Source: Candidatus Nitrososphaera evergladensis SR1
GTDB lineage: Archaea; Thermoproteota; Nitrososphaeria; Nitrososphaerales; Nitrososphaeraceae
Length of the DNA: 64,000 nucleotides
Direction: 5' to 3'
NCBI RefSeq assembly: GCF_000730285.1
Contig: NZ_CP007174.1
Location: forward strand, 1,550,001-1,614,000
The notes under the pieces were generated by a model, which had not been told where the DNA came from, did no database searches, and saw nothing but the letters and a program-made list of their open reading frames with translations. Position 1 is the first letter of the stretch. The number at the start of each line of letters is the position of its first letter. Positions 1,387 through 16,823 of the stretch are shown here, piece by piece. A program made the position numbers and the translations under genes.

Positions 1387-1402
1387 TTCTTATTTCTCTT
1401 TT

Positions 1403-1419: not shown

Positions 1420-1506
1420 TGCCAATTTCTTTCTATGACAAGGAAAATCATGGATTTATGAATTGGAGAATAGAAATAAAGAAAAAGGTGGAATCGACAG
1501 CCGCTG

Positions 1507-1845: not shown

Positions 1846-2003
1846 ATGACATCGCCTATATCTTCTAACTAGAAGAAAAATAAATTTTTTGCTTCATCAT
1901 AAATTTCTGTCGTCAGCAGCAACTTTGATCACTCAAAATCCATAAAAAATAAAAAATAAATATTAGTTACTCACATGTTGTGACTTGTTAGAGGTGCTGC
2001 AAA

Positions 2004-2162: not shown

Positions 2163-2214
2163 GTCACATCCTCACTTTTTATCAAAGAAAATTTTTTTAT
2201 TTTGAATCTCTTTA

Positions 2215-2963
2215 TCATAGAATAAAGGTCGATTGCATATGATGATTAAGACAAGAATATCGTATGCAATCACTGGCTGGCTGGCTGCCTCCAAGCGCGC
2301 CAGTCGCCGTTGCCTTCTTAACCTCTTGTGCTAGCAGTTCCATCTCTGGAACCCTATCCTTCTGTATCCTGCCAAACTCGTGCTCGCTAATGCTCCTGTC
2401 TCCAATCAACCGTAAGTAGATGAAATCAGTGGTAACTATTGGAGGCGCCTTTATGTCGTCGAGCTGGTTCCACACAAGACAGATGCCTTTTCGTTTCAAA
2501 AAGTCGTACAGCTCATCGTTGAACCATGATGGGTGCCTAATTTCTACAGCATATCTGTATTGTTTATTGAGAATATATATTTCCAAAGTTTTGCAAGGCT
2601 CTAAATCCTGTTTTGAAGCCGATGGATGACGGCAGCTGTATCAGGATGCAAAGAAGTTTCTCTCTTAGTAGGGCCACCGCTGAATAGAACGTCTCCAGCT
2701 GTTGATCGCAATTGCTCATCGCCTTTGCATGTGTTATTACCCTATGCATCTTGGCCGTGTACCTAAAGTCGACTGGAGTATTTTTCGCCCATCTCTTTAC
2801 TGCGAGGGGGATTTGGCATGGAGTAAAAGGTGCTGTCGATTTCAACAAAGTCAAAGATGCCTGCATAATGCTGCAGCCATTTTGTCTGTTCCAAGCACCT
2901 TGGATAAAGGGGGCCCTGCCACGCAACATAGCTCCAACCGCTGCAGCCCACATAATATTGCAC
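2215..2963 (-). pseudogene. DUF72 (YecE-like) protein broken by two frameshifts
   Basis: Three consecutive frames together spell a DUF72 protein: YYVGCSGWSYVAWQG and VEIDSTFYSMPNP (start 2963), then VKRWAKNTPVDFRYTAK, then YRYAVEIRHPSWF and TTDFIYLRLIGDRS. The first shift is an extra C in a C5 run (2806-2810), the second an extra G near 2580. The C-terminal NNHYAGF-type motif of the family is not recognisable. DUF72 has a TIM-barrel fold of uncertain enzymology. Two separate shifts plus a damaged end favour genuine decay, though homopolymer errors are possible. Confidence 0.75.
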
Positions 2964-3522
2964 AATCGTCTAAGAGCTTGCCACTTATTTTCCATTACTG
3001 CCAACTACAAAGTTCACGGTTTAGCCTGATGATGTGGAACCAAAGCAACTGGATATAATGCAACTACTTCTTGACTCTTTTCAAAAAGCACCCATTTCTG
3101 TTGCCCCCACTCGAAGTATAAAAATATGCTCACCTTCTATGACTATGTGAAGAAAATAAGAGAAGAGCAAAACAGCAAATCGTCGCAAAACTAGAATTTG
3201 GAGCTACAGAGTATAAGGAGTTGCAATTAGCATTAGTAATGAACTTCTTTGAATTCCGCAGACAAGTGATAAAATACGCACGAATTCCCTTCAAGAGGAT
3301 TTAGAGTGTCACAATGCCCGTTCATCTTGGAACCCTTTTGCCTTTGCATCTGCAGATTCTTTCGCTCCCACAAAATCTGATGTGCACAAGCGTTATTTTT
3401 TTGATACCATCCAATTATCCACAGACCGCACTTGACCAAACGACTTATGATAATAATGTACAACATGTTGTGAAAAAAGGAAGAGTACTTTGGGGCGAGC
3501 ATAGTGGAACTAACGGTTCAAG
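2964..3522. other. Stretch without a convincing gene
   Basis: Only short ORFs in unlikely frames are present. A TATA-like TATAAAAATA near 3118 precedes a possible 15-22 codon charged ORF that I could not support. No tRNA, repeat array or mobile-element feature was recognised. Confidence 0.4.
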
Positions 3523-3702
3523 CTATTCAGAATTCATTTCGCCTTTTGTCGATCCAACTTCGAACTCTTGAAACTCCTTGTCTTCCCTCGACTTTACTTT
3601 AGTGATTGGCCCTTGTGCCTCTTTCGTAGGATCTACTTTGTCCTCGTCGTCCGGCAACTACTGTTTCTTGTCCTTTTCATTGAGGTTTGGGCTTGTCCGC
3701 AT
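3523..3702 (-). pseudogene. Small charged ORF with an in-frame stop
   Basis: From ATG 3702 the frame reads 14 codons, a TAG at 3658-3660, then 44 uninterrupted codons very rich in Asp, Glu and Lys (LPDDEDKVDPTKEA...KSREDKEF) to a TAG at 3523. The composition looks like coding sequence, so this may be a decayed small acidic protein. It could also be chance. Confidence 0.35.
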
Positions 3703-3955
3703 ATTCTAATGTTACATTCAAAGATTGATGAGATTCTCTGGACTAAGAAAGGATGAACCAGGTTAGCCCGTGCGAGCCTCCTACAGGTATGTGAAAAGTA
3801 AAGAATTTTCAATAATAATCAGTACCTAAAGAATCGTGGGTACGCTTATTATCAGGTCATCAAAGGAAAGAATGGTCGGCCATGCTTCATAGAGGTTGTC
3901 GTTATGTGAGCCACAGCAACTTTTGGAACATGGCCAACACAGGCGTCTAATCCTT

Positions 3956-3997
3956 GACCCGCATCTGTATTCGTGGGGAATGATATGGGTGCGGGTC
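3956..3997. repeat. GC-rich inverted repeat
   Basis: GACCCGCA (3956-3963) pairs exactly with TGCGGGTC (3990-3997) across a 26-base loop. It lies in a stretch (3703-4163) that otherwise holds no clear protein gene. Confidence 0.4.
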
Positions 3998-4035
3998 GAG
4001 TTTTTAGTCTATTAAGAAAGCGGTGTTATTTAAGT

Positions 4036-4135
4036 ATGGGCCCGCACAGGGAGACGAGACGTGCAAACCGGCCCGAACGGAGGCGTGGGCGAGCGTGAGG
4101 AATACTACAACAAGCCTAATTCAGTATCTTTTTAT
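4036..4135 (+). ncRNA. Candidate structured non-coding RNA with terminator
   Basis: The stretch is strikingly GC-rich for its surroundings. GGGCC/GGCCC and GCAC/GTGC nest into one stem-loop (about 4038-4077). Downstream ATACT/AGTAT forms a second hairpin followed directly by TTTTT, a plausible terminator. A TATTTAAG box lies just before. A 20-codon Arg-rich ORF (4036-4098) overlaps but looks less convincing than the RNA structure. No known RNA family is recognised. Confidence 0.35.
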
Positions 4136-4163
4136 GTGTCCGCCTTCTAGGTCTTAGTTCCAC

Positions 4164-4379
4164 ATGGCCTTGGTCGAACAACAACGCAATAAGATAAGTT
4201 TGCTCGTATGCAATTCATGCTATTGGATGTCATCACTTTTGGACAGCTCAAAGGAGGTTCCCAACTGTCCTTCGTGCGGAACCACGTTAGAATCGCTGCC
4301 TGTTGAAAATAACGAAAGGTGCACCATAGAGGCAGCAGACACTAAGACAGGTTTGATCGTAGAGTTCCAAAGAGCATAA
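4164..4379 (+). CDS. Small zinc-ribbon protein
   Basis: 71 residues with two metal knuckles, CNSC (about 17-20) and CPSCG (about 35-39), then a short acidic beta-rich tail. The spacing of 14 residues fits a rubredoxin-like zinc ribbon. It begins 29 bases after the terminator-like T-run, so it may share that transcription signal region. Probably a nucleic-acid or protein adaptor; no specific function can be assigned. Confidence 0.65.
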   Translation: MALVEQQRNKISLLVCNSCYWMSSLLDSSKEVPNCPSCGTTLESLPVENNERCTIEAADTKTGLIVEFQRA

Positions 4380-4408
4380 GGCTTGAGCATTGGCCAATAT
4401 TATCATAA

Positions 4409-4537
4409 ATGACTGGCAAGCCTGTGCGATGTGGCGTGTGTGGTAAAGCCATGCCATCCAAGGCTGAGAGAGCCAGACATTTGGATCAAGTGCACAGGAT
4501 TACGATAGACGATGGTCCTAGCGATGCCCTCTCGTAG
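4409..4537 (+). CDS. 42-residue C2H2 zinc-finger protein
   Basis: The product (MTGKPVRCGVCGKAMPSK...) is essentially one finger, C-x2-C-x12-H-x4-H, with a short acidic tail. It lies 29 bases after the preceding zinc-ribbon gene and in the same direction, so the two may be cotranscribed. Single C2H2 proteins of this size are common in archaea and often proposed as DNA-binding regulators. Confidence 0.6.
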   Translation: MTGKPVRCGVCGKAMPSKAERARHLDQVHRITIDDGPSDALS

Positions 4538-4579
4538 GGGAGCGGAGGGCGACAAGCGTCGGCAGTTGGCAGAAAAGAA

Positions 4580-4948
4580 TTATTTTGTTGTTGACTGCGA
4601 TTCGGTGCCTGAGGCAGCAGATATCTTTTCATTGTATTCAGTAGCATAATGTTTCACCAACAGCAACGAGATTGCAATCTCTGCCGCTATGCCACTGATT
4701 ATAATAGCCAACGAAGCGGCATAGTTGTCAATTGAATTAGCGATTCCTCCCGTTAGCCCACCAATGACCAATCCCAGTCCAAAGTTGATTCCTGTTAGAA
4801 GCCAGAACTTTTGGATGCGCCATCCGGCGTAGATTGATAGAAACGGAATGAAAGAGTAGATCATCATCCGTTTAACATTTACTTGCTCCCGTGGAGGATC
4901 AAGAACCATGCTACTTACATTATAGTTGCTTCTTCTATATAAGTTCAC
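4580..4948 (-). CDS. Small multi-pass membrane protein, unknown
   Basis: 122 residues. A polar N-terminus is followed by hydrophobic segments at about 28-45 (MMIYSFIPFLSIYAGW), 50-70 (LLTGINFGLGLVIGGLTGG) and 78-98 (ASLAIIISGIAAEIAISLLLV), and the C-terminus is Ser/Thr-rich and polar. No catalytic motif is seen. Convergent with the C2H2 gene. Confidence 0.65.
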   Translation of the reverse strand: MNLYRRSNYNVSSMVLDPPREQVNVKRMMIYSFIPFLSIYAGWRIQKFWLLTGINFGLGLVIGGLTGGIANSIDNYAASLAIIISGIAAEIAISLLLVKHYATEYNEKISAASGTESQSTTK

Positions 4949-5031
4949 TAGAGGCGAGCGATAGGACGCAGGAGATGGCTCGAATCGGAGAGCCCCTTAG
5001 TACCATCTTGTAATCATAATCCCTCACAGAA

Positions 5032-5126
5032 GGAGGGGTAGTTGAGTCTGGGAAGAACGCTTGTCACATGGGCACATCCAGTGCCACGTGGACATGAGAG
5101 CGTGGGTTCAAATTCCATCCCCTCCG
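5032..5126 (+). tRNA. tRNA-like gene (possibly class II and intron-bearing), anticodon unresolved
   Basis: A 7-bp acceptor stem (GGAGGGG/CCCCTCC), D-arm GTT...AAC with an AGTCTGG-type loop, and a T-arm GTGGG-TTCAAAT-TCCAT are plain, with discriminator G at 5126. The 5' and 3' style resembles class II (Ser/Leu) archaeal tRNAs, and G73 favours Ser. The middle (5061-5101) carries an extra hairpin GGCAC-ATCCA-GTGCC and does not fold as a standard anticodon arm, so an intron or a degenerate gene is likely. A second copy lies at 55080. Confidence 0.5.
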
Positions 5127-5134
5127 CCTAGGAA

Positions 5135-5464
5135 TTAAGAGTGAGCGCCGAGGCTTCTGACGAGAGACCTTATCTCCGGTTCCCGTTTTCCGATTTCTCT
5201 CATTATTGCTTGAAACTCCATATCCATGGGAAACCTACCATGTCTGCAGCGAAAAATCAAGACGTATCCGTGTCTAATGTCATGGATGACATCGTTCTCT
5301 ATGAACCACATTTCAGCAGCTCTACTAGTTGAACCCAAAAATTCTTCATCTACCTTTTGCGCTTCCGGATGCTGCGGTTTTGCCACCTTCAAGTCACGTA
5401 TGGATTTGTCGAGATATTCATTTATGGAAGCTTTCTCGGCATTATCCAACTGGAGGTTACGCAT
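5135..5464 (-). CDS. Conserved-looking hypothetical protein
   Basis: 109 residues, soluble, rich in charged helices (MRNLQLDNAEKASINEYLDK...), ending eight bases from the tRNA-like gene on the opposite strand. A CRHGRFPMDMEF stretch stands out but no family is recognised. A signal antagonist or regulator are equally possible; function unknown. Confidence 0.5.
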   Translation of the reverse strand: MRNLQLDNAEKASINEYLDKSIRDLKVAKPQHPEAQKVDEEFLGSTSRAAEMWFIENDVIHDIRHGYVLIFRCRHGRFPMDMEFQAIMREIGKREPEIRSLVRSLGAHS

Positions 5465-5630
5465 TGTGTATGCAAACGTGTCAAGGTTTAATGGCGTTTC
5501 TCATCCTTCTTCAGGTAGCTGAATACCGGGAGCGATGGACGAGCGGATAGGCAACCCGTTGTACTCGGCTTGTCAAACTGGCGCATTTACTCTATTTCAC
5601 TTCAAAGGATTCAAAAAAAAGAAATTGGGG

Positions 5631-5798
5631 CTATGTCGTCGGTTGTGCTTCGAGCTTTATCTTCGATATCTTCTTCCTGCTGCTCATGCGATGAGTCCGT
5701 ACTTTTCTACCACAGTCTGGACAGCGGATGGTTCCTAATGGTCGTCGTTCTCTACAGGTACTACAAAACGTGCTGGTCTCATAGATGGATTTTCCCAT
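5631..5798 (-). CDS. 55-residue zinc-ribbon protein
   Basis: ATG 5798 opens a frame with CSTC (about 12-15) and CPDCG (about 26-30), then a strongly basic tail (KVRTHRMSSRKKISKIK). The metal knuckles and basic tail point to nucleic-acid binding (inference). It is part of the run of tiny zinc proteins in the first 6 kb. Confidence 0.6.
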   Translation of the reverse strand: MGKSIYETSTFCSTCRERRPLGTIRCPDCGRKVRTHRMSSRKKISKIKLEAQPTT

Positions 5799-6077
5799 TC
5801 TCCCCGATTCTCTCCCAATTCAGGCGAGCTGCTATCATTAATCAGTCCTATAGTGCTGATATTCTAGAACTCTATACCTGATTAAGAACTAGAAGACATT
5901 TAACATATTATTAAACTATGATAAAGCTAGGCCGCCTAATGATTGCTAGGTTGAAATGAGGGAGACAAACGATTTCAACATAGCGGAAATTGTTAGAATT
6001 CTTGTGAAACATTGTATACTAATTAGCTAACTTGACAACTGTCGATGTCTTTTCTTTAAAGAAAATGATTCTTGTTT

Positions 6078-6224
6078 ATGGAGATTTCCAGCCATAGGGA
6101 TTCGCAGAAGAGCAGGCATGAATTGCTGGAAGAGATAGAGAGATTGAAGGAGAAACTGAGAGCAAAGGAAAAGGAGATTGCGGTTCTTAAAAAACGCATT
6201 GCAATCTACAAAAGTTTGAAGTGA
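6078..6224 (+). CDS. 48-residue coiled-coil protein
   Basis: Almost the whole product is one heptad-patterned helix (HELLEEIERLKEKLRAKEKE, then IAVLKKRIAIYKSLK). No other domain. Such free coiled coils may dimerise with a partner; nothing nearby shows which. The neighbouring minus-strand gene at 6298 points towards it. Confidence 0.5.
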   Translation: MEISSHRDSQKSRHELLEEIERLKEKLRAKEKEIAVLKKRIAIYKSLK

Positions 6225-6297
6225 GATGGCCAGAACAGAGGGCGTTTGGGATGGCTCTTGGCAAAAGTGGCACACCTGCCATACCTGCCATGGCAGG

Positions 6298-6456
6298 CTA
6301 GGGCTTCAGCCTGCCTTTATCCCTCAAGAGATCATCTCTGAGGATGGCCAGTGTATGCCTCAAAATAGCTGCCGAATGCGTGTCGGACAGGCCATATTGC
6401 TTCTTTACGTATCTGCAAAGTCGGTAGTCATCATACTTTGTAAGGTCTATAGCCAC
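6298..6456 (-). CDS. 52-residue leaderless protein of the integrated element
   Basis: GTG 6456 lies about 27 bases downstream of a TTAAATAT box, so the transcript is probably leaderless. The product (MAIDLTKYDDYRLCRYVKKQYG...HSAAILRHTLAILRDDLL) is helical and basic, like small DNA-binding proteins of archaeal viruses, but no family is recognised. It shares its promoter sequence almost base for base with the replication operon at 8265, so the two are likely co-regulated. Confidence 0.55.
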   Translation of the reverse strand: MAIDLTKYDDYRLCRYVKKQYGLSDTHSAAILRHTLAILRDDLLRDKGRLKP

Positions 6457-6474
6457 GATTCTTCGTAATAAAAA

Positions 6475-6494
6475 ATGATATTTAAGGCTAGTAC
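6475..6494 (-). promoter_or_regulatory. Element-type promoter, copy 1
   Basis: Read on the minus strand this is GTACTAGCC-TTAAATATCAT: a BRE-like GC step and TATA box about 27 bases before the GTG at 6456. It matches 19 of 20 bases with 8287-8306. Confidence 0.55.
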
Positions 6495-6506
6495 CTGGGG
6501 ATTTAC

Positions 6507-6825
6507 TGTCACCAGTGTACCCACTGGATGCTTAGGATACTAGATCTAACCTATATGCATTATAGAAGTATAATGATAGTATAGAGGGGAGAGGATTGTG
6601 CCAGTGTATCCTAAGCACCCACTGGTGACAGTGGTGACGGCAGACAAGGGAGATTCTATCAATGACTGTTTATTTCGTTAGCTGTACCCAGTGTCACCAG
6701 TGAAGTGGCATAGGGAGTGGTACTATACCGTGTATTGTATAAAAATAAATAATAAATAAAAATTATAATAAATAGGGTAAGTAGCTATCCCTACCTATGC
6801 CATTCCAGTGGTGACACTGGTGACA
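6507..6825. other. Candidate replication origin: paired inverted repeats around AT-rich DNA
   Basis: The core TGTCACCAGTG occurs at 6507-6517 and 6692-6702 and, inverted, at 6620-6630 and 6815-6825, with partial extra copies (CAGTGGTGAC) beside it. The first pair is extended by GCTTAGGATAC (6530-6540 and its inverse near 6605-6615), the second by GTGGCATAGG-like sequence (6705-6714 and its inverse near 6793-6803). The second pair encloses an almost pure A/T tract (about 6735-6775). Iteron-like repeats plus an unwinding tract beside a replication gene are typical of plasmid and virus origins; origin function is inferred. Confidence 0.6.
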
Positions 6826-7742
6826 TCTAAGGAAATAGACAACCCTTCGTAGAACCGGGCACGTCCTCCGTTCACTCTAGCTTGTCTTCTCTTGAAGCCC
6901 ATAGGATTTAGGACGTTGCCAACTCTATCCTCATCAATAGGAGCCAGATTGTTCTTGGCACACCACTTGTTTAGTTCATCCACAAAAGTTGTAGTCTGCA
7001 CTCTCCTACCAAAACCTACTGTACAGCAAGCAGCAATGAACTTGTTAATGTTCTCTTTATGATCTTCCATGTAACTATGACTGATCTTCTTCGATTCCTT
7101 CTCCTCCGGTAGAGTTTCGCCGAAGCACTGCAATACTTTAAGCAGCTCGGCTTTCGATACCTCAACAACTCCAAAATTAGGCATCATCATACCGCATTTG
7201 TTACGTCCGTATGCGGCTTCATACTTATCCCACTCGACTGTGAATGAAGGTAAGACGGGGACGTAGTGCCCATTGCCATATAACGTTGCTGTCTTTCCTA
7301 GTTCGATAGTAGGAATACCATTTGGAAACTCTTCTCGCTTGTACTTCAAAAGCCTCCCGCCTCCACGAGCCAATATTTCTGAGCTCTTCTTTAATTTCGT
7401 CAAGAGGTCCTCAGAAAGTGGCAGTTTTGGCAACTCCCGCCTGTCCATAGACAGTAACACATGATTCCCCGGCGATCCCGTTGCAATGGCAAGGTTAGGA
7501 TAGAATCCCTTGGCATATCTTGAGCCTTTGACGAACGGGTCCGGATCATAATCTCTAGTCTGCCAATCTCTATCCACAGGAAGCAATCCTCTTTTACTCT
7601 TAGACATGGATTTGTCTAAAGGGGATCGTAGAGGAATGATTGCCAGTTCATACTTGCCCCAAAGTTCTTCCGCCTTGGCGTGGAACTCCGCCTCATCCAC
7701 GTTCACTCCCTTGATTTTTCTTTTATCAAGCTCCTCATTCAT
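6795..7742 (-). CDS. PrimPol/AEP-like replication protein of an integrated element, catalytic residues altered
   Basis: 315 residues. Residues about 75-185 follow the N-terminal layout of bifunctional primase-polymerases: NLAIATGSPGNHVLLSMD, then ARGGGRLLKYK, then TATLYGNGHYVPVLPS. The usual D-h-D of motif I reads S-M-D and the motif II His reads Leu, so catalysis may be lost. The C-terminal third (TFVDELNKWCAKNN...VGNVLNPMGFKRR...GGRARFYEGL) resembles the winged helix that follows primases or D5-type helicases. No helicase domain. The inverted-repeat array overlaps its 3' end, suggesting it binds there. Last gene of a three-gene ATGA-coupled operon. Confidence 0.65.
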   Translation of the reverse strand: MNEELDKRKIKGVNVDEAEFHAKAEELWGKYELAIIPLRSPLDKSMSKSKRGLLPVDRDWQTRDYDPDPFVKGSRYAKGFYPNLAIATGSPGNHVLLSMDRRELPKLPLSEDLLTKLKKSSEILARGGGRLLKYKREEFPNGIPTIELGKTATLYGNGHYVPVLPSFTVEWDKYEAAYGRNKCGMMMPNFGVVEVSKAELLKVLQCFGETLPEEKESKKISHSYMEDHKENINKFIAACCTVGFGRRVQTTTFVDELNKWCAKNNLAPIDEDRVGNVLNPMGFKRRQARVNGGRARFYEGLSISLDVTSVTTGMA

Positions 7743-8086
7743 ACAGGACCATACTCCTTAATTCTGCATTCGACCATCGGAACACCGCACTCGTCTTCGC
7801 TCCATCTTGTAGAGTCTACTATCAATCCTACGTCTTGGCAGACTTGGTAGAAGTCAGCTCTGGGATCATCAGAGTTGTACATGACTGCCTTCAGCTTGTT
7901 GTATCTAACGGTGATTTTTGTCCATCTACTGTAGAATACTATTTTCTTGCCGCCTCGGCAAGCCACGACTATGCCATACCATTGTATCTCTGTTTGGCCC
8001 TTGCTGTCGGATTTACCTTTTATATCATTGTCTGTACTTTTTATGCTGTAGTCAGGTCCGTTGGATGTGGTCTCTTGGCTGGTCAC
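7739..8086 (-). CDS. Hypothetical protein of the replication operon
   Basis: 115 residues. A polar Ser/Thr/Lys N-terminus (about 1-33) is followed by a beta-rich core (WYGIVVACRGGKKIVFYSR...ITVRYNKLKAVMYNSDD) and an acidic end. Four-base ATGA overlaps join it to both neighbours, so translation is coupled to the PrimPol-like protein. A nucleic-acid-binding accessory such as an SSB-like fold is possible but not shown. Confidence 0.6.
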   Translation of the reverse strand: MTSQETTSNGPDYSIKSTDNDIKGKSDSKGQTEIQWYGIVVACRGGKKIVFYSRWTKITVRYNKLKAVMYNSDDPRADFYQVCQDVGLIVDSTRWSEDECGVPMVECRIKEYGPV

Positions 8087-8265
8087 CGAGTGACTGCCTC
8101 CTTTTTATTAAATTCGGCAAGTCCCGCCATCCCGTCTACGTTTGTCTTCACATTGGTCCTGCACCTAGGGCAGGATGTCCAAAAAGGGGACCTGCCCTTG
8201 TATAGCCATTCATAGGCGCACTTACCGCAGGTAAGGCGCTTTAGCGTAGTTTGTTCACTATACAT
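8083..8265 (-). CDS. Zinc-ribbon protein heading the replication operon
   Basis: 60 residues with CGKC (about 13-16) and CPRC (about 32-35) knuckles, then a short tail. ATG 8265 sits about 31 bases from the centre of a TTAAATAT box, so the leader is very short. First gene of the operon with 7739-8086 and 6795-7742. Small zinc ribbons often accompany replication genes in archaeal elements; a DNA-binding role is inferred. Confidence 0.65.
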   Translation of the reverse strand: MYSEQTTLKRLTCGKCAYEWLYKGRSPFWTSCPRCRTNVKTNVDGMAGLAEFNKKEAVTR

Positions 8266-8286
8266 TCTACATAATAAAAAAGAAAT

Positions 8287-8306
8287 ATGATATTTAAGGG
8301 TAGTAC
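8287..8306 (-). promoter_or_regulatory. Element-type promoter, copy 2
   Basis: On the minus strand GTACTACCC-TTAAATATCAT, 19 of 20 bases identical to 6475-6494. It drives the replication operon. The conserved bases extend beyond a TATA box on the upstream side (GTACTA), which suggests an operator or strong BRE. Confidence 0.55.
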
Positions 8307-8542
8307 TGTTTATATAACACCATTATAAGGTTTGCTACCTAAAGATTGGTAGATACCGATAAGGTGGTTACAATACGGCGACTGTCTATGCTTTCATCCA
8401 AAACTAGCCTTTAATATCATAACACACCCACAGAAGTTGGCAAGCCAGAAAAAGGAGCGAACCATGCAAGCGAGCTAGCCATTAGGATGGGTGAACCAAC
8501 TTAGTAAGCGAAAACATCTTGGAGGGACCCTTCCCTCCCATT
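8307..8542. other. Intergenic stretch with a GC hairpin
   Basis: No gene seen. GGAGGGA-CCCT-TCCCTCC at 8521-8538 is a seven-bp hairpin immediately past the stop of the gene at 8543, a possible terminator or mRNA end. A small GGTAG/CTACC symmetry lies near 8327-8350. Confidence 0.4.
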
Positions 8543-8716
8543 TTACAACTTTTGCAAAGCGTTCAGCACAGAATTAATCAAAAGAACCTGATCGGTCATA
8601 ATTGCCCGTTTCTTTAGAATCCTGCTCTTCAGCGTCTTGCGATAGCCGTCAGAATAAGCTTGTATGTTACCTTTCTTCAGGTCCTTCAAAAACTGCTCCT
8701 CCTTAGGGCTTAACAC
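8543..8716 (-). CDS. 57-residue leaderless basic protein
   Basis: GTG 8716 lies about 27 bases after TTTTATATACTA, indicating a leaderless mRNA. The product (MLSPKEEQFLKDLKKGN...YRKTLKSRILKKRA) is all helical and basic, and SPKE-EQFLKDL resembles the start of small archaeal DNA-binding or sigma-like helix-turn-helix proteins. No family is assigned. It diverges from the membrane-protein gene at 8827. Confidence 0.5.
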   Translation of the reverse strand: MLSPKEEQFLKDLKKGNIQAYSDGYRKTLKSRILKKRAIMTDQVLLINSVLNALQKL

Positions 8717-8826
8717 GATATATCGTAATTTCTTGATTTAGTATATAAAAGTACCTATCAATAGCTGATTTACGTAAGCTGGTTAGCTGAGATCATATTA
8801 TATACTAGATTACGGTATTCTGTAAT

Positions 8827-9039
8827 ATGAATAACGCAACAAACAACGCAAACAAAATAACCGCAAGCAAAGTCGTCGCAGCCGTCGCAACTGGAGCCCT
8901 GATTTTTGGAACAGCCTACGGGGCAGCCACACTCCACACGCCGTTGGGTGCACCGATCCTGACAGCTTCAGTATTCTCATTGGGGCTGCTAATGGGAACG
9001 ACTTTCAAGGGCAAGCGCAAGGCTGAGGTGACTGCTTAA
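8827..9039 (+). CDS. Small double-membrane-helix protein, candidate virion or envelope protein
   Basis: 70 residues. A polar Asn-rich start is followed by two hydrophobic helices, about 16-36 (VVAAVATGALIFGTAYGA) and 43-59 (PILTASVFSLGLLMGTTF), and a basic end (KGKRK). This size and layout matches major capsid proteins of spindle-shaped archaeal viruses, though sequence identity cannot be judged. TTATATACT about 25 bases upstream suggests a leaderless transcript. First of three plus-strand genes packed to 9432. Confidence 0.6.
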   Translation: MNNATNNANKITASKVVAAVATGALIFGTAYGAATLHTPLGAPILTASVFSLGLLMGTTFKGKRKAEVTA

Positions 9040-9040
9040 C

Positions 9041-9202
9041 ATGGCCGCCACCCTCCAACACCGGGAGCATGGTATCGTTGAAATGGGGTGCGTGCTGGCT
9101 GAGGTCCACAGGTCCCCGTTCGGCCGAGACTTGCTCCACAATGCCATGCACCAGATGGGCCTAAAGTGCGATATGTGTGATGAGCATGAGGGCTCAGCCT
9201 AG
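9041..9202 (+). CDS. 53-residue His/Cys-containing protein
   Basis: ATG 9041 begins two bases after the preceding stop, so it belongs to the same transcript. The product has several His residues and a C-terminal CDMCDEH that could bind metal. No family. Codon use (GC-rich) matches the neighbouring small membrane proteins. Function unknown. Confidence 0.5.
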   Translation: MAATLQHREHGIVEMGCVLAEVHRSPFGRDLLHNAMHQMGLKCDMCDEHEGSA

Positions 9203-9213
9203 CCCCACTTTTT

Positions 9214-9432
9214 ATGGTGATAGCAATGGCAAAAATAATTGGTCTCGGTAAATTCATTGTGGCAGGCGTCTGCGTCGCAGTATGGCTTAACGGTTTCGCC
9301 AGCCTCTACCAATCATGGTCAGACGCCGGCATCAGCGCTGCAATGTGGCTAGGCGGGGCATCAGTCTGTCTGTATTGGGCTATGCGTGATCGCAGGAAGG
9401 CAAAGGCGAGCTCACAACAACCCCTTCCATAG
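9214..9432 (+). CDS. Second small double-membrane-helix protein
   Basis: 72 residues. Hydrophobic segments at about 8-30 (GLGKFIVAGVCVAVWLNGFA) and 38-57 (GISAAMWLGGASVCLYWAM), separated by a short SLYQSWSD turn, then a basic-polar tail (RDRRKAKASSQQ). Layout parallels the gene at 8827. Its end overlaps the convergent 1200-residue gene by 21 bases. An envelope or capsid role is inferred from size, topology and context only. Confidence 0.6.
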   Translation: MVIAMAKIIGLGKFIVAGVCVAVWLNGFASLYQSWSDAGISAAMWLGGASVCLYWAMRDRRKAKASSQQPLP

Positions 9433-12400
9433 ACCTTTCTTCTTTCCTTTTGATTTTCCAGCCTTTACCTGTTTCTGACCGCCTTCCTGAATATCAAAGG
9501 CACCGGCTCCGAACAGAATATTTCTTACGCCTCTTTGCTTAAACGAACTGACTCCGGCTCCCTTGCTCCCTTGACTGGCCGCCACACCGCCCGGCATGAA
9601 TGTTGGAATTGCGATAGGTGGCACCTTCCGACTAGTGGGTGGACTTCTCGGAGGCCTGCCCGTGGTTGTATCAAGCCTGAAGTTTAGATCTGTAATAGTC
9701 CCCTGATCTAAGCGGGAACCTGTTGAGGTGATGTTTCTAGGAGTTGTGAAGATATCCGTCTTCGCTCCACTTCTCGACCCGGTGCCGTGGGAAAATGGAT
9801 TGGCAACATCCAGCCCTCCTCTCTGTGGCTTAATGTTGAATGGATTTGATGTTTCAGTCAGACTGCCAGGGTTAACTAGGCTCTCTGTCCTTCTACTTTC
9901 TCTACTCTTTAGCCCCAAGCTCTCACCCGGATAGCGAACATACTCGGTTGTTTCATTTGTGACAGTTCTTTTCTTATTGACCCTTTCTACACCAGTAGCT
10001 CCTTTGAATCCTAGCAGGCCGGCGTTTGCGTAACCTGCCGCATTACCGCCTAATCCTAGACTCCTACCCGCCTGTTTTGCAGACTGCTCGGCATCAAATA
10101 TCGTGTTTTTCACACTCGCAAAGCTCGGAGCTTCCTTGGCACTACTAACCTCAATCAACTTACCGCCATTTGTCTTTGGAAGTTCTGCCGATGGTGTTCT
10201 GGCCGGTTCAACATCAAACTTGAATGGTGTGCTCGGCTTCTTTGTCCTTGCCTCATCACTAACAGCCTTGGATCTTTTTGTATCCTCTTTGACAAACTTG
10301 CTGACCTTATTAAGATCAAACTCCACATCAGTGGCCACTTGTTCCTTCATCAGTTTTATCGCCTTGCCGCCTTTGGTTATGAAATAGTTTCCGGATAACG
10401 GGTCCAGTCCTTCAGAATCTCTTGCAAGGTCATAGCCGGCTAGTCTGGAAAGTCTGGCACTAGGCAAAGCTGGATTTTGCTCCAAGTTATAAACATCTGT
10501 GGTACTGCTTGCTATCAGGTTAGAGGACTTGGGAGCGTTCTGGACCTTTGGGAACATGACATCCGCCGGCGCTCCTCCTTTCGCCGGATTAATTCTTCCC
10601 TTTCCGCCTACCTTATAGAAAAATTCGCTTGCGTGTTGCAGTGCGCCTAATGCGTCGGCCCTCTTGATGCCAAAGGTTGTTGTTGTGCTGGATATTTCAC
10701 TTTGAACACCCGTTATTTTTTCCTCAATGCCAGCTATCTTTTGCAAGAGGTCGGATTTTTGGCTAGTCAAGTCAGCGAGCTCTTTCGAGCTTGCAGCATC
10801 GCCGCTATTAATGCCAAACATATCAGCAGGGTTCGATTTACTGGCAGTTGAGATCTGGTTGTCGATATCAACGACTTGTGATTGCAATCTTTCCTTTTGG
10901 TCCCTAAGGTCATCTGCCTTGGAATACAATGGCTCTAACTTTTTGGATAGTTTCTGAGACTTCATGTTAAGAGTCGGGTCGTTTTTGAAAGCATAGTTTT
11001 CAATCATCTCTTGAACCTTGGGACTATGGAAGTATGGGTTCACGCCTTGTGCCTTGATCTCCTCAGCACTTGGAGCCTTTGTTTGATTCTTTAACCACTC
11101 GGCAGTGTTTTGAACTGATGTGACAGATTTGAGGTCTTGACCGACAAGATCTGCCTTTGCTGCAAGCGGCAGTGGAGATGGATTCTGGATGATGGCTGTG
11201 TTACTCCTAGGTGAAATAATCCCAATCGGTGTACCCTCTTGCGTCACGACCTCTCTAGTTGGATTGATGGTTAACTTCTTGACACTTATGCTCTCTGGAA
11301 TATTGATGGAAGCAATAGGTGTCTCGTTCTGCATGATGCCGAGATCTATTTTCTTACCGCCTACCAATGGAATCTTTACGTTGCGACTGGCTACAGCAAC
11401 GTTCGCAAAGCGTGTAGGCTGAAGTGGCACGTCAACGACCTCACCGGTTGCCGGAATCTTGCGCTGTTCGATGGGCCTAACAGAAACGTCGCCCTCGACA
11501 CCCGCTCTTTTTGCCGCAGCCTGCGCTTCCTTCTCAACAGATCGGGTAAGTTTGAGACCGGATGCAACCTTGCTTACATCCTTTACAATCTTTACAGGAT
11601 TGCCAAATGTGGCAATGTCTGCAATGGTACCGCCAATAAACTCAACAGGCCGTTCTTGCAGTGCCTTGTATTGTTGCGCTATGGCTTCATCCCCACTGCC
11701 GAACGACAGGCCAGTTGCACTTTCGACAGACTGTTTCATGCCACTCTTTTCCAATTCCTTCACACCATAGGCAGCACCGAGCCCCACTATGCTGCCTACG
11801 GGGATGTTTTGTGCGTCGATAATTTTTTTGTCCTGCGCTGCTTTAGACGATTCGGCATAAAATGTATCGCTGCCAAAGGTCCTGCCTATACTTTCAGTAA
11901 GTGTACTGAACGCACCAAGGTCCGTGGCTGACTTGATTGCTTGTGATGCTGCGGCACTATTATTGCGAGTCCGTTCCGCTTGCGCTTTAAATCCTAGTGC
12001 ATCCTCCGCCTTGCTGATCAGATTGCCACCTAAACTCACCAGTCCTGCACCCGCAGCGCCGAATCCCTCGACGCCAAAGCGCCACACCTGCTCGGCAGCA
12101 TCTAGATTTAATTTCGCATCTTTGTATGGATCCGGAATCTCAAAGGTGCCATCATCACGAACTGCCACTGTCTTACCACCGCTAGTGAAAGTTGTGAACT
12201 TGGCTGTAGTCTTACCGGAGGAATCTTTAGTCTCTACAAGCCCTCCAAAGCCTTTGGCCTGCATGCCGCTAATCCATGCGTTATAATCTGCTTCTGCCTT
12301 TTCGTTGGCCTTGCGAGCAGCGGTGTTTTCACGTTGAGCCCCCATAAATTCAGCGTAGAACTTTTTGCTCTCCGCCACATCTACGAAGAGTGGGCTGATG

Positions 12401-13014
12401 TCACCTGTAGGAGACATTTCCACCTGTCCTGCATACTTTACCTTCCCTCCCTTTTCCTGTTCACGCACAAACTGAAGGATGTGGTCGCCCAGTGCGAGCC
12501 GGCTCACATTAACCCTTTGTGATGCCCCGTTTTGTCCTGATTGCGCTAAGGATTGACGCTGTGCGGCAAGATTCTGCGATTGGTATGCGGCATAGTTTTT
12601 TTCCAACGCTTTGTTTTCGGCCGCCTTGTCGTAGATTGGAATGCTCATAGTGCGCTTTGGTCCCTCTTCGTACCTGCTGCCGCCGCCTAATTTGCCGAAG
12701 CCGGGAGTGATGGCGACGGTATACCTATCCTCGACAGCCTGCCGGGCTTCTGGCAGAAAGTCGGAGAGATTCTGCGTTTGCCCACTAGATAGCGCCTGTT
12801 CCTGAGCTCTTCGCTGTGCTTCCAAGAATGTCTGCGTGGCCAGCGTACGTTCTGCTTCTGCCGAGACGCCACCGGTGTTTGCAGCCGGTGCCGATGCTTG
12901 CGCTGCTAGATCGGCACTGGTCAAGGTCTGACTTTGCCCTGTCTGAATAGCTTTTTTTTGCAATTCAGCATTAGCTAACTGATACTTTTTGTAATTGTCT
13001 TCCATGCTAGTCAT
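9412..13014 (-). CDS. 1200-residue element protein, structural-protein-like, unknown family
   Basis: By far the largest gene of the element. The N-terminal 200 residues are Ala/Gln/Ser-rich and helical. About 305-360 is small-residue-rich and weakly hydrophobic (VEGFGAAGAGLVSLGGNL). About 690-770 is a coiled coil (KLEPLYSKADDLRDQKERLQ and onwards). The C-terminal 250 residues are Pro/Thr/Ser/Arg-rich and low in complexity, ending in a basic tail (KAGKSKGKKKGLWKGLL). No catalytic motif is recognised. Such composition is typical of minor virion, tail or injection proteins and of secreted scaffold proteins. Starts two bases after the RHH gene stop, so the two are probably cotranscribed. Confidence 0.65.
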   Translation of the reverse strand: MTSMEDNYKKYQLANAELQKKAIQTGQSQTLTSADLAAQASAPAANTGGVSAEAERTLATQTFLEAQRRAQEQALSSGQTQNLSDFLPEARQAVEDRYTVAITPGFGKLGGGSRYEEGPKRTMSIPIYDKAAENKALEKNYAAYQSQNLAAQRQSLAQSGQNGASQRVNVSRLALGDHILQFVREQEKGGKVKYAGQVEMSPTGDISPLFVDVAESKKFYAEFMGAQRENTAARKANEKAEADYNAWISGMQAKGFGGLVETKDSSGKTTAKFTTFTSGGKTVAVRDDGTFEIPDPYKDAKLNLDAAEQVWRFGVEGFGAAGAGLVSLGGNLISKAEDALGFKAQAERTRNNSAAASQAIKSATDLGAFSTLTESIGRTFGSDTFYAESSKAAQDKKIIDAQNIPVGSIVGLGAAYGVKELEKSGMKQSVESATGLSFGSGDEAIAQQYKALQERPVEFIGGTIADIATFGNPVKIVKDVSKVASGLKLTRSVEKEAQAAAKRAGVEGDVSVRPIEQRKIPATGEVVDVPLQPTRFANVAVASRNVKIPLVGGKKIDLGIMQNETPIASINIPESISVKKLTINPTREVVTQEGTPIGIISPRSNTAIIQNPSPLPLAAKADLVGQDLKSVTSVQNTAEWLKNQTKAPSAEEIKAQGVNPYFHSPKVQEMIENYAFKNDPTLNMKSQKLSKKLEPLYSKADDLRDQKERLQSQVVDIDNQISTASKSNPADMFGINSGDAASSKELADLTSQKSDLLQKIAGIEEKITGVQSEISSTTTTFGIKRADALGALQHASEFFYKVGGKGRINPAKGGAPADVMFPKVQNAPKSSNLIASSTTDVYNLEQNPALPSARLSRLAGYDLARDSEGLDPLSGNYFITKGGKAIKLMKEQVATDVEFDLNKVSKFVKEDTKRSKAVSDEARTKKPSTPFKFDVEPARTPSAELPKTNGGKLIEVSSAKEAPSFASVKNTIFDAEQSAKQAGRSLGLGGNAAGYANAGLLGFKGATGVERVNKKRTVTNETTEYVRYPGESLGLKSRESRRTESLVNPGSLTETSNPFNIKPQRGGLDVANPFSHGTGSRSGAKTDIFTTPRNITSTGSRLDQGTITDLNFRLDTTTGRPPRSPPTSRKVPPIAIPTFMPGGVAASQGSKGAGVSSFKQRGVRNILFGAGAFDIQEGGQKQVKAGKSKGKKKGLWKGLL

Positions 13015-13016
13015 GG

Positions 13017-13148
13017 CTAGCTCCTGCCCTCCCTTATTCCGGCCAGTCTAGCTAGCAAACAATCCCAATTCTCGTACGGAAGGGCTTTTGCTCTAAGGGC
13101 CTCCTTGATCTCAGGACGGCATGATATGGTAGTAACTTTCTGACTCAT
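13017..13148 (-). CDS. 43-residue ribbon-helix-helix type regulator
   Basis: MSQKVTTISCRPEIKEALRA followed by YENWDCLLARLAGI matches the CopG/Arc-like layout: a short beta strand (VTTISC), helix, turn, helix. Dimers of such proteins bind DNA through the paired strands. It stands two bases before the 1200-residue gene and probably controls that operon. A stretch of TATA-like A/T sequence lies upstream (13150-13175). Confidence 0.6.
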   Translation of the reverse strand: MSQKVTTISCRPEIKEALRAKALPYENWDCLLARLAGIREGRS

Positions 13149-13264
13149 TACAATAAAAAATAATTAAACATAATTGGCAAGAAAGGAGGAAAGGCTAGCC
13201 TTCAAAGAATCTTCTACTAGTCGTTGCCGCCAATAAGTTCAAGAATCATGAAACACCATAACGG

Positions 13265-13372
13265 ATGATGGAGCCGTGGAAGAAGTATGCCTTTGCTTCA
13301 ATCAGCGTGGCGATAGCAATGGTGGTCCTCTTCGTTCTAGGTGTTATTTTCGTGCACAGTGGGAATGGCTAG
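13265..13372 (+). CDS. 35-residue single-pass membrane peptide
   Basis: MMEPWKKYAFASISVAIAMV continues into a long hydrophobic helix (VLFVLGVIFV) and a short HSGNG tail. Nothing else is present. A charged N-terminus and one helix is a common form of small virus or plasmid membrane proteins. An overlapping 64-codon frame (GTG 13276) has no coding character. Confidence 0.5.
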   Translation: MMEPWKKYAFASISVAIAMVVLFVLGVIFVHSGNG

Positions 13373-14011
13373 CCGTATATGCCGATGAAAGAATGCAAGA
13401 ATCAAAGAACGTTAATGCGCATTTAGCCCTATTATTAATAGAGGATGAACTTATGATCATGAAAAGTTGAATATTACCGTTACATTCTTTCACGCTTATA
13501 AGAATAGAAGTTTTTTGCAAGATCTGGTGCAGCTATACAGGTTATCAAATACGTCTGAGTGCAAACATCGGGTAGCAAAATGGCAGGCAGAGACTGCGTA
13601 AAATGGTAAGCGTAAGGGCCTCAAATGCTTATTAAAGTAAATAGGGATTCAAAAAGCAGATTTTATGTCAGCTCTTTTCATACCGAACCTTCATGTGTTC
13701 CGTAAGACTATAACACATTCTGGAGATCCTGCAAGCCATATAGAAGACTACTGATAAGAACCGTGAACGTCTAGTTGTATAAGGAGCGCCCACGCCCTTA
13801 TTACATGAATGGCAAATCCAAAACGACAATTTTCAACGACTCTTTTTTTATCAAACTGATGAGGGTTGCATATAACGCTTAACGCCTCAAAAAGAATATG
13901 TGGCATCAGCTGTAGATAGTATGTGGCTGAGGATGGTCCTGCTGCCTACGTATCGGCCCTATCTTGACCCTGCATATTAGCTGGCCATCGTCAGTCCAAA
14001 ACCAATCTGGC
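13373..14011. other. Long intergenic stretch in the element
   Basis: No convincing gene on either strand. An interrupted palindrome at 13779-13801 (ATAAGG-a-GCG-CCCA-CGC-CCTTAT) could be a terminator or protein-binding site. The rest is A/T-rich with short homopolymers and no recognised RNA gene. Confidence 0.4.
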
Positions 14012-14353
14012 TTATTGTTGCTGACCGCCATGCTCTCCCGTCTCCGGCAATAATTCCACTTTAACTGTTCGCCCACGCCAAGCTCTTGGCAGTGTGATGT
14101 GAGTACATGTGCCCGAACTCTTTACAGTCTTTACCATTGATGATGGGATGTAATGAAGGGTCTTGCGAGTTTTGATCCCACGTTCAAGATATCGAAGCAG
14201 GTCATATCTGTAGAAACCCTCTATCTTCCGCTGCCGTTCTTTGTAGGCTCGTGTAAATCTGTAACCGGGTTTGTACTGCATTAACCACTTATGATCCTCC
14301 ACCTCTTCTAGGACCTCCCTGTATTTCATTTCCGCACATGCTCCTTGGCCCAT
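14012..14353 (-). CDS. Element protein with AbrB-like/DUF2080-type C-terminus
   Basis: 113 residues. The first 70 are basic and helical (DHKWLMQYKPGYRFTRAYKE). Residues about 78-104 (VKTVKSSGTCTHITLPRAW then GRTVKVELL) match the swapped-hairpin AbrB-like fold of DUF2080 'transposon-encoded' proteins, which bind DNA as dimers. Last gene of the coupled operon 15145-14012; a 28-base overlap with the previous gene indicates translational coupling. Confidence 0.6.
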   Translation of the reverse strand: MGQGACAEMKYREVLEEVEDHKWLMQYKPGYRFTRAYKERQRKIEGFYRYDLLRYLERGIKTRKTLHYIPSSMVKTVKSSGTCTHITLPRAWRGRTVKVELLPETGEHGGQQQ

Positions 14354-14685
14354 CTAGCAGGAGCATCTTCTTCATACTTTCTTAGGAAGTCACCATAGAT
14401 GTGCATGTATTCCAAATAATCATCAGTAGTGGCGTTGTCGTCCTTGCTAAGAGGTGGAGGATTGTAGCCTAACGTCAGGATAGATGCTCGTACAAGCTGG
14501 ATCGCTTTCTTGGGATCGGTGAGCATGAACTCTGAGGATTTGCAGCCAAGCCAAAGCGCCACACTCTCTTCATCGTCGTATTTTAACCGGTATTGGTTTG
14601 CCTTAAAGTCCTCAATGTCCTCCTCGGACATGTCAAACCTTTCAATCATTTCTTTTGAGGGAGAGATATCATCGCTAGCCGTCAT
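14326..14685 (-). CDS. Acidic hypothetical protein of the element operon
   Basis: 119 residues, rich in Asp and Glu (EEDIEDFKANQYRLKYDDEE, SVALWLGC). Predicted all-helical with a conserved-looking LGYNPPPLSKDD segment. No family. It overlaps both neighbours, by four bases upstream and 28 downstream. An acidic partner for the basic proteins on either side is conceivable. Confidence 0.6.
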   Translation of the reverse strand: MTASDDISPSKEMIERFDMSEEDIEDFKANQYRLKYDDEESVALWLGCKSSEFMLTDPKKAIQLVRASILTLGYNPPPLSKDDNATTDDYLEYMHIYGDFLRKYEEDAPARWAKEHVRK

Positions 14686-15023
14686 TCGCCTTCCTCCTCC
14701 TGCTCTTCACGTTCCCTGCGCTCGTCTTCGTCTGTCCACAGCCTAACTGAGCTTACATTGCCGTGACGCTTCAAGTACTTGTCAGTTGATATCATCACAT
14801 TATCCAACTGCGCTGCGCAGTAGTCCTCCCAAGGTTTTTGATTTACAAGAATACTGACCTTCGGCGGCCGTAATGGAGGCTGCGGAATTTTTGCACCAAC
14901 TAACCTGCTTAGTGATTTTAGCAGAGTAGAAGCGGTGTAATAGTTTGTACCGCTATATGCGATCAGGAACGAGTTGTAAGTTTGATTGATTAGCATTGAG
15001 CGTAGACCGGGACCTTTCTTCAT
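14682..15023 (-). CDS. Hypothetical protein of the element operon
   Basis: 113 residues. A basic N-terminal half with LLKSLSRLVGAKIPQPPLRP, a middle segment KPWEDYCAAQLDNVMIS, and a very acidic tail (TDEDERREREEQEEEGE). ATGA overlaps (four bases) on both sides place it firmly between the RHH gene and the acidic gene. No domain recognised. Confidence 0.6.
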   Translation of the reverse strand: MKKGPGLRSMLINQTYNSFLIAYSGTNYYTASTLLKSLSRLVGAKIPQPPLRPPKVSILVNQKPWEDYCAAQLDNVMISTDKYLKRHGNVSSVRLWTDEDERREREEQEEEGE

Positions 15024-15145
15024 TGTTCATCAGACTCCTTCTTTGAAAGCAAGTCGTTTATCCGGCTGTCGAATGTATCTCCGTATGTCATTGTATCTTT
15101 GAGTCGCTGGTGTGTTGCTCTACTGATGCTAATCGTTACTTTCAT
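15020..15145 (-). CDS. Ribbon-helix-helix regulator heading a four-gene operon
   Basis: MKVTISISRATHQRLKDTM followed by GDTFDSRINDLLSK is a classic RHH: strand VTISIS, helix with HQRLKD, turn at YGDT, second helix. An upstream in-frame ATG (15160) would add MSTAN, but a TTTATATTA box centred near 15170 puts the transcription start almost exactly at 15145, so a leaderless start there is preferred. Likely autoregulates the operon that it opens. Confidence 0.65.
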   Translation of the reverse strand: MKVTISISRATHQRLKDTMTYGDTFDSRINDLLSKKESDEQ

Positions 15146-15385
15146 GTTTGCTGTGCTCATAGTAATATAAAAAATGAAATCGGCAGAATGACAGAAGAGA
15201 AAGATTACAATGGGAATCGTTTGTGCTTGTGCGTTCTACACCCTATTATTATTAGAGATGACCAAGATGATAAGAAAAAAGAGTTACAAACCAGTGTGCC
15301 ACAAAGTATCATCTTTGAAAAGTTTCTTCTCAATCTCTTGTGCAGCTATATTTATCTACGAGTATTCTATAGAATAAGCTTCACT

Positions 15386-15583
15386 ATGCCTGCTAAAGAA
15401 AACAGCATGTACAAGACAAACGAACCTCTGCTGACAGCCTTGCAGAGGAACGATTTAGAGGAGTTGCGAAGAAAGGTAAATGGTGAAAAGGGAACTTACT
15501 TTGACTTCTATTCGGTTGCAAAGAAGTACTGCAACAGATATGAGGATATGATGAGGTCACACGGGATAAGAAGAGAGGAATAG
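15386..15583 (+). CDS. 65-residue hypothetical protein
   Basis: ATG 15386 follows a CTATATTTATC box with a short leader. The longer reading back to 15110 runs over this promoter and is rejected. The product is helical and charged (LLTALQRNDLEELRRKVNGE, FDFYSVAKKYCNRYEDMMRS). No family. It diverges from the RHH operon. Confidence 0.5.
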   Translation: MPAKENSMYKTNEPLLTALQRNDLEELRRKVNGEKGTYFDFYSVAKKYCNRYEDMMRSHGIRREE

Positions 15584-15669
15584 TCGCTCGAGCTATTTGC
15601 GAAGTCAACCTCAGGAGCCCTAGCTAGACTTGCCTCCTGCCACGCCAGCTTGTTGTATTCGCACTAATC

Positions 15670-15882
15670 CTATTTGGCGTAGAACCGGCATTCCCAAAAC
15701 CTCGGATAGTTTGAGAAGTCAACATGAACTACATTCCGCAGGACCAACTCCTTTACCGCATCAATAGTTCTGTCGTGACTGAATCCTGTTTCCATTATGA
15801 GATACTTGCCTTGAATGCCAGAATATTTCCTAATTAGACTAAGGACTTCGCAATCTCCCGGTAGAGGGTCAGTTGCGAGCAT
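15670..15882 (-). CDS. Small winged-helix-like protein
   Basis: 70 residues. DCEVLSLIRKYSGIQGKYLI, then METGFSHDRTIDAVKELVLRN, then VVHVDFSNYPRFWECRF reads as helix, recognition helix and beta wing, the layout of a minimal winged HTH. It may regulate the element or the divergent PLD gene. An overlapping plus-strand frame (ending 16006) also has some coding look (AYLFALQFADARTLALVEKQ), so strand choice is not certain. Confidence 0.45.
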   Translation of the reverse strand: MLATDPLPGDCEVLSLIRKYSGIQGKYLIMETGFSHDRTIDAVKELVLRNVVHVDFSNYPRFWECRFYAK

Positions 15883-16079
15883 TCTTGGCAGATACTACTA
15901 TAGTGATTATGATTTTTCAGCATATCTATTCGCATTGCAGTTTGCGGACGCCCGCACCTTGGCGCTAGTTGAGAAGCAAATAGAAGAGCGTGACGTAGAG
16001 ACATAGCTGCCGTCTAAAATAAAGCCCGATTAATGAGCCACCGTCTTTTATAGACAATACAAAGATTCACCATCATTTA

Positions 16080-16691
16080 ATGCCGATAGAAAGGACCAAC
16101 GAATCAGGTCGTCATGTCGTTGAGCAACTGTTTGGAGCACGTCGGTCGGCACTAATTTGCTCACCTTATATCTCCTCAGAATATGCAAAAAAAATCACAG
16201 GTCTAGCAGCAAGAGGAGTTTTAGTAAAGGTATTGACTTCAGACAAAAATGTCGAATCAGATTTTCACATAAGAGAATTTTTTGCAGAGGCGAAAAGAAA
16301 GGAAAAACTTGATACCCTCAAGACACTCGTGATCAGTCACAGGATGTCATTTGAACACTCCAAGATGTACATAATTGATGATGAATATGCTGTAATGGGT
16401 TCTGCCAATCTGACAAGAGCTGGCATGTGGGAAAATGGTGAGACCATTGACGTCTACCGCAGTCACAGAGATGTTCAGCTAGCTAGGGAAGCATTTGAAA
16501 GCGCATGGAAGGATGCACTTGCATCAGCATTTGGAAACAAGAGCAACACATATCAGCATACTTCAACTTACCCACGCCAAGGTACACGTGCCAATTACCA
16601 AATCCATGAAAGAACAGGATCCAAGAAAGTAGAGGATAGAGATTCCATTTTCGATGTTATCAAACGTGAACTAAGGAGTCTGACTAAATAA
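16080..16691 (+). CDS. PLD-family (HKD) nuclease-like protein
   Basis: 203 residues. ALICSPYISSEYAKKITGLA is the family's first strand-helix unit and HSKMYIIDDEYAVMGSANLT (about 97-116) the single HKD motif with the GSxN step. One HKD per chain means that the active site forms in a dimer, as in Nuc-type nucleases. Residues after about 160 are polar and probably a flexible tail. Such enzymes cut DNA or RNA and occur in defence and mobile loci. It lies at the right edge of the accessory region. Confidence 0.8.
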   Translation: MPIERTNESGRHVVEQLFGARRSALICSPYISSEYAKKITGLAARGVLVKVLTSDKNVESDFHIREFFAEAKRKEKLDTLKTLVISHRMSFEHSKMYIIDDEYAVMGSANLTRAGMWENGETIDVYRSHRDVQLAREAFESAWKDALASAFGNKSNTYQHTSTYPRQGTRANYQIHERTGSKKVEDRDSIFDVIKRELRSLTK

Positions 16692-16708
16692 CCACGAACA
16701 TTGTGCCC

Positions 16709-16768
16709 GCCGCACAGCTTTCCTGACTGGCATATCCACCTATTCACTAGGAGGGTTGGATGTGCGGC
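16709..16768. terminator. GC-rich inverted repeat between convergent genes
   Basis: GCCGCACA (16709-16716) pairs with TGTGCGGC (16761-16768), with further complementarity inside (CCACC/GGGTTGG). It separates the PLD gene from the host gene ending at 16824, so it may terminate either, or mark the boundary of the accessory region. Confidence 0.4.
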
Positions 16769-16823
16769 AAAATAATCACCTGTTTAAATACTGAATACCG
16801 CACACAAACGCCTAGCTGTTAGC

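Follow-up and report, generated by a model that had tools for sequence, protein, structure and literature searches.

The stretch of DNA analysed here, referred to as the window, comprises 64,000 nucleotides of the chromosome of Candidatus Nitrososphaera evergladensis SR1 (G000:C1:1550001-1614000; the chromosome is a single contig of 2,954,373 bp). Between positions 6298 and 16691 it contains a block of small genes that includes a primase-derived replication gene with a repeat array, two membrane hairpin proteins of 70 and 72 amino acids (aa), here called TM1 and TM2, a 1200-aa protein and two short RHH-type proteins. A first-pass annotation had read this block as an integrated virus- or plasmid-like element with these boundaries, lacking a recognisable integrase and attachment (att) pair. 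The compactness of the block was confirmed, as were the ATGA/GTGA couplings between its genes (7739/7742, 8083/8086, 14682/14685 and 15020/15023). We consider it very probable (about 0.9) that the block is the right-hand portion of a 28.2-kb integrative mobile element.

Integration into the 3′ end of a Zn-finger gene

The first-pass annotation had suggested comparing the locus among relatives, and this comparison revealed an empty site. In same-genus relatives the genes for homoserine dehydrogenase and AIM24 adjoin, with gaps of 240-320 bp in seven genomes (292 bp in G042, 243 in G029, 241 in G040, 286 in G035, 315 in G031 and 294 in G026, with G034 in the same range), versus 28.5 kb here. The chromosome is collinear with G042 at the nucleotide level up to position 1538562 and resumes at 1566795. 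The two insert ends carry 13-bp att repeats that differ by one mismatch and span 28,245 bp from attL to attR. The left junction reads ATAACGCACACAA followed by GTACATAA, the right junction (window 16795) reads ATACCGCACACAA followed by ACGCCTAG, and the empty site in G042 reads ATAACGCACACAAACGCCTAG. Good att copies were located at these two ends only; no third one was found inside the insert, where the best match, at the start of TM1, has two mismatches.

A Zn-finger gene of 51 aa is the target; where G042 has ACGCCTAG, its 3′ end here has GTACATAA. The insertion replaces 8 nt of this end, changing the terminal residues from NA to ST (ITHTNA before the stop in G042, ITHTST here) and supplying a fresh stop codon, TAA in place of TAG. 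The first gene inside attL encodes a tyrosine recombinase that matches Pfam Phage_integrase (E-value of 3 × 10−7) and an XerA-like NCBIfam family (E-value of 2.8 × 10−10) and keeps the R, HxxR, GHS and Y motifs. This gene and attL escaped the first-pass annotation because they fall outside the window edge, and the boundaries proposed there need revision, as the left end of the element lies 11,450 bp beyond the window's left edge and its right end at position 16807. The tyrosine recombinase would have inserted the element at the 3′ end of the small Zn-finger gene, restoring its stop codon. Sequence comparison supports an integrated mobile element, missing from related genomes, with predicted replication-type genes and a candidate origin, and we infer that it is mobile today.

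This element matches NitEve-E2 of Ca. Nitrososphaera evergladensis and was thus already catalogued. In the passages of Krupovic et al. 2019 (PMC6563490) that concern it, NitEve-E2 occupies the 3′ end of a Zn-finger gene, its att is 13 bp long, and an exchange of 8 nt puts TAA in place of TAG relative to N. viennensis. The target, the att length and the 8-nt swap are common to both, the empty site in N. viennensis is likewise matched here, and those passages contain no conflicting feature. As far as term searches and one section of that account extend, it does not discuss the cassette, sister relation, mosaic or iterons described below. What is new about this known element is its pairing with a sister, the mosaic nature of the cassette, the reduction of the primase and the placement of iterons across the family.

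Table 1. Features of the element. Coordinates are window positions unless prefixed with G000.
Feature	Coordinates	Strand	Remarks
Integrated element, whole	G000:C1:1538550-1566807	.	empty-site comparison and att repeats
Element portion inside window	1..16807	.	left end 11,450 bp beyond window edge
attL, ATAACGCACACAA	G000:1538550-1538562		outside window; empty-site comparison, att search
Tyrosine recombinase, 435 aa	G000:1538627-1539934		first gene inside attL, 11.4 kb left of window; Pfam, NCBIfam, motifs
Iteron array, TGTCACCAGTG	6507..6825	both orientations	candidate origin / initiator-binding sites
Primase-derived initiator, 315 aa	6795..7742	-	degenerate Prim-Pol-like N-terminus, no SF3 helicase, C-terminal winged helix
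Unknown protein, 115 aa	7739..8086	-	ATGA-coupled to initiator gene
Zinc ribbon, 60 aa	8083..8265	-	
TM1, membrane hairpin, 70 aa	8827..9039	+	93% identity with sister
TM2, membrane hairpin, 72 aa	9214..9432	+	96% identity with sister
1200-aa protein	9412..13014	-	mosaic with sister copy, purifying selection
RHH-type protein, 43 aa	13017..13148	-	directly upstream of 1200-aa gene
113-aa protein, DUF2080 C-terminus	14012..14353	-	homologous to sister's 124-aa protein
Unknown protein, 119 aa	14326..14685	-	RHH operon
Unknown protein, 113 aa	14682..15023	-	RHH operon
RHH-type protein, 46 aa	15020..15160	-	first gene of operon
70-aa protein	15670..15882	-	possible winged helix (sequence pattern only)
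Phospholipase-D-like (nuclease-type) protein, 203 aa	16080..16691	+	final gene before attR
attR, ATACCGCACACAA	16795..16807	+	empty-site comparison, att search

A mosaic cassette exchanged with a sister element

A search with the 1200-aa protein identified a second, 87% identical copy at 1478528-1482127 and no further copies in the other family genomes searched. The second copy belongs to a sister element, an insert of roughly 12.4 kb that adjoins ilvD, is absent from G042 and lies 81 kb from the window element. Its genes include two tyrosine recombinases, a 780-aa PrimPol-D5 with the helicase present, a MazE-type protein and an RHH-type protein. An att pair could not be defined for the sister, as G042 has 420 bp of other DNA at that site. 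Backbone genes correspond in order between the two elements: the integrase (weakly, E-value of 2 × 10−5), a Zn-finger protein (215/313 aa, 10−34), a 107/89-aa protein (5 × 10−30), the zinc ribbon (60/78 aa), TM1, TM2, the large protein (1200/1206 aa) and the 113/124-aa protein. In the window element, ~15 kb of additional cargo, which the sister lacks, separates the left-end genes from the replication module. This cargo has genes for a glycosyltransferase, a CBS protein and proteins that look exported but have no assigned family, plus a DUF72 gene that is broken into two frames (window 2215-2963) and is apparently a pseudogene.

DNA similarity between the two elements is limited to a cassette formed by TM1, TM2 and the 1200-aa gene (window about 8839-12950). 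There, identical runs of 255, 429, 356 and 515 nt lie between stretches at 53-75% identity, and the longest run compares with a maximum of 116 nt in 1000 column shuffles. Codon analysis placed the synonymous divergence (dS) of the identical blocks at 0 to 0.03, and that of the diverged blocks at about 0.92 to saturated; the ratio of non-synonymous to synonymous divergence (dN/dS) was about 0.17-0.21 in blocks where it could be computed. From the low dN/dS and the identical blocks it follows that the 1200-aa protein is under purifying selection and that the two copies have recently recombined, so this gene is a mosaic exchanged with the sister element. TM1, TM2 and the 1200-aa protein form one constrained cassette that has undergone homologous recombination with the sister. 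The two co-resident elements share a strongly constrained large-protein cassette homogenised by recombination, a good target for testing particle production by ‘cryptic’ elements of soil ammonia oxidisers. With identical runs of up to 515 nt, the two cassettes form direct repeats at a distance of about 81 kb (G000:C1:1478.5 and 1559.4 kb), and recombination between them could delete the intervening region.

The first-pass annotation had called the 1200-residue protein structural-type and had counted virion-type genes in the block. The open reading frame and both small hydrophobic membrane proteins are there as described, but the virion label gained no homology support. Sister copies aside, the cassette proteins had no accepted homologue in Pfam, PHROGs, NCBIfam, PADLOC or PDB, nor in INPHARED, IMG/VR, GTDB contigs or 400 Nitrososphaeria genomes, the IMG/VR and GTDB contig scans having used short peptide patterns whose reach is best for close relatives. 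The integrase and the sister's primase likewise drew no IMG/VR match in scans of this kind. TM2 showed weak, sub-threshold matches to membrane-hairpin families (Holin-X, E-value of 3 × 10−4). A profile match of the 1200-aa protein in G232 (E-value of 3.5 × 10−4) was rejected, as it falls in a HisD-like gene. The AlphaFold model of the 1200-aa protein was unusable, with a mean pLDDT of 34 and confidence only for a helical hairpin at about 680-780. The 43-aa RHH-type protein has a 42-aa counterpart at the same place in the sister, and the VAPB_antitox match there (E-value of 1.6 × 10−4) lends weak support to the two short RHH-type proteins of the block that had been reported before.

A probable primase-derived initiator and an iteron array

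The gene previously read as PrimPol-like is primase-derived, but its 315-aa product is not a full PrimPol, since the helicase is gone and conserved motif residues appear to be. The PHROGs match of the protein covers the C-terminal end of primases from phages and plasmids (E-value of 3.9 × 10−6), and against the primase profile of its own family positions 649-742 alone match. Its N-terminus has a weak Prim-Pol match (E-value of 0.0027) under the Pfam cut-off, and in a marginal alignment to 17 relatives the conserved DxD is SMD and the H of motif II is substituted. Only the C-terminal domain of the structure model was used, because the 9-sequence input alignment misplaced the N-terminus onto helicases. 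This domain, a D5-type winged helix, was modelled at a pLDDT of about 85, and in PDB it resembled an RFX DNA-binding domain best (target TM 0.78), followed at lower similarity by the PrimPol of African swine fever virus. The initiator of this copy lacks the SF3 helicase domain, has apparently lost the primase motif residues and retains a predicted DNA-binding winged helix. A primase gene seemingly cut down to a degenerate N-terminus and a DNA-binding domain may illustrate a route from replication enzyme to origin-binding protein.

Primase-type replication genes were found in 44 of the 400 Nitrososphaeria genomes, and in the sister and two other relatives a zinc-ribbon homologue immediately precedes the primase gene. 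According to the text on these elements in PMC6563490, PrimPol and SF3 helicase are fused in the thaumarchaeal elements NitKor_MY1-E1 and NitAQ6f-E4, while in CalSub-E1 the domains are separate. All three have an integrase plus a primase-type replication gene in common with the present element. The sister's 780-aa PrimPol-D5 has the fused form, whereas the 315-aa form of the window element differs from it in its missing helicase and apparently eroded motifs.

The origin-like repeat array already recognised in the first-pass annotation proved significant. It consists of four exact copies of TGTCACCAGTG and one with a single mismatch; the window has seven matches where 0.87 are expected, and of the six exact copies genome-wide, four lie in this array. 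At 9 of 19 primase-family loci a 9-mer repeat array reaches significance (shuffle p up to 0.007) within 400 bp 3′ of the primase gene, and at none of them on the 5′ side; common descent of these loci means that the counts are not independent. Across 18 loci (window left out), the 5-mer with the strongest enrichment in the 3′ flanks is TGTCA/TGACA, seen 45 times where 13.8 are expected and present in 14 loci, with 20 occurrences in the 5′ flanks; the TGTCA core also lies within the window's iteron. The RFX half-site is GTNRCC, which the iteron's GTCACC fits, but the sister and other relatives lack enrichment, and we do not claim this correspondence.

The zinc ribbon, the primase-derived initiator and the iterons would together constitute a plasmid-type replication module. 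The initiator may bind the iterons at the 3′ end of its own gene, through which the element would replicate; it would then depend on host replication proteins, or the element may no longer replicate alone. With frequent 3′ iterons that have a TGTCA core in common, the origin becomes testable in a widespread family of archaeal elements. Defence-like cargo near primase loci of related archaea includes a Shedu SduA protein (L116), and the L108 locus has an AAA ATPase adjoining a subtilisin-like protein, with large ATPase- or helicase-like proteins at L109 and L106.

Nature of the element and its right-end genes

The integration claimed by the first-pass annotation is borne out, and its viral part is not. 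Several readings of the element can be set beside each other. It may be an integrative element of plasmid origin; the cassette would then be accessory cargo, with a role in surface properties, competition or defence, that recombination moves between elements. We give this reading a chance slightly short of even: the relatives of the sister's primase have very different adjoining cargo, partly defence-like, and the restriction of inter-element DNA similarity to the cassette fits as well, but the backbone genes on either side of the cassette are ordered alike in both elements, and no effector or defence domain was recognised in it. A provirus of an undescribed family, spindle-shaped or pleomorphic-like, with TM1 and TM2 as membrane-embedded coat proteins and the 1200-aa protein as virion protein, appears unlikely. 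Fuselloviridae and other spindle-shaped archaeal viruses have an integrase, small two-helix membrane proteins and one large protein; the similar gene set of the element, with its primase and a constrained large protein, serves as a lead only, as neither sequence similarity nor a hallmark gene was detected. The cassette is the most conserved part of both elements, as such a provirus would have it, but PHROGs, INPHARED, IMG/VR and PDB contained no viral hallmark or virus homologue of its proteins, the scanned proteins included no recognisable packaging ATPase or capsid protein, the structure model of the 1200-aa protein was of no use, and small hairpin proteins are common outside viruses. With no positive homology evidence, provirus status is unsupported. 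Equally improbable is a reading in which an undescribed virus-like family builds its particles, virions or vesicles, from a module of the hairpin proteins and the 1200-aa protein; the window member of this family would be helicase-less and its replication dependent on host or helper. If true, soil ammonia-oxidising archaea would host this family, and a single chromosome would contain two of its members, 81 kb from each other, that recombine in their particle module. Virion, vesicle, surface and transfer functions are all possible roles of the cassette.

The insert could also represent two adjacent elements, an integrase-bearing left one and a separate integrase-less right one (6298-16691), given that the left cargo is unlike the replication block and that the window begins 11.4 kb past the integrase. 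We regard this as very improbable, as a good third att copy is missing from the insert and the sister unites the same left-end genes (integrase, Zn-finger and 107/89-aa) with the right-hand module in 12.4 kb. Our preferred reading, a single 28.2-kb integrative mobile element matching NitEve-E2 with a reduced initiator, has points weighing against it too: the broken DUF72 gene means that part of the element is decaying, the name NitEve-E2 is set by the published description and rests on that paper's text (PMC6563490), and the apparent loss of motif residues in the 315-aa protein hinges on the marginal N-terminal alignment.

Among the right-end genes, the product of 14012-14353 exceeds NCBI's cut-off for DUF2080, a ‘transposase-associated’ family, although no transposase was recognised among the scanned proteins. 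Homologues of the 70-aa protein occur in G042 (73%), precisely at the sister's insertion site, and in G029 (41%) (homologue coordinates L062:9324-9533 and L063:18270-18488); judging from these sequences, the sister's insertion site may be an insertion hot spot. Within the element cargo, window 4997-5127 is an 84% copy of a tRNA-Met gene (compare 55042-55176) and ~40 nt upstream of it. ARAGORN makes no call on this copy, although its acceptor stem has a seemingly compensated change, A to G together with T to C. The copy could be either a pseudogene or a diverged tRNA borne by the element.

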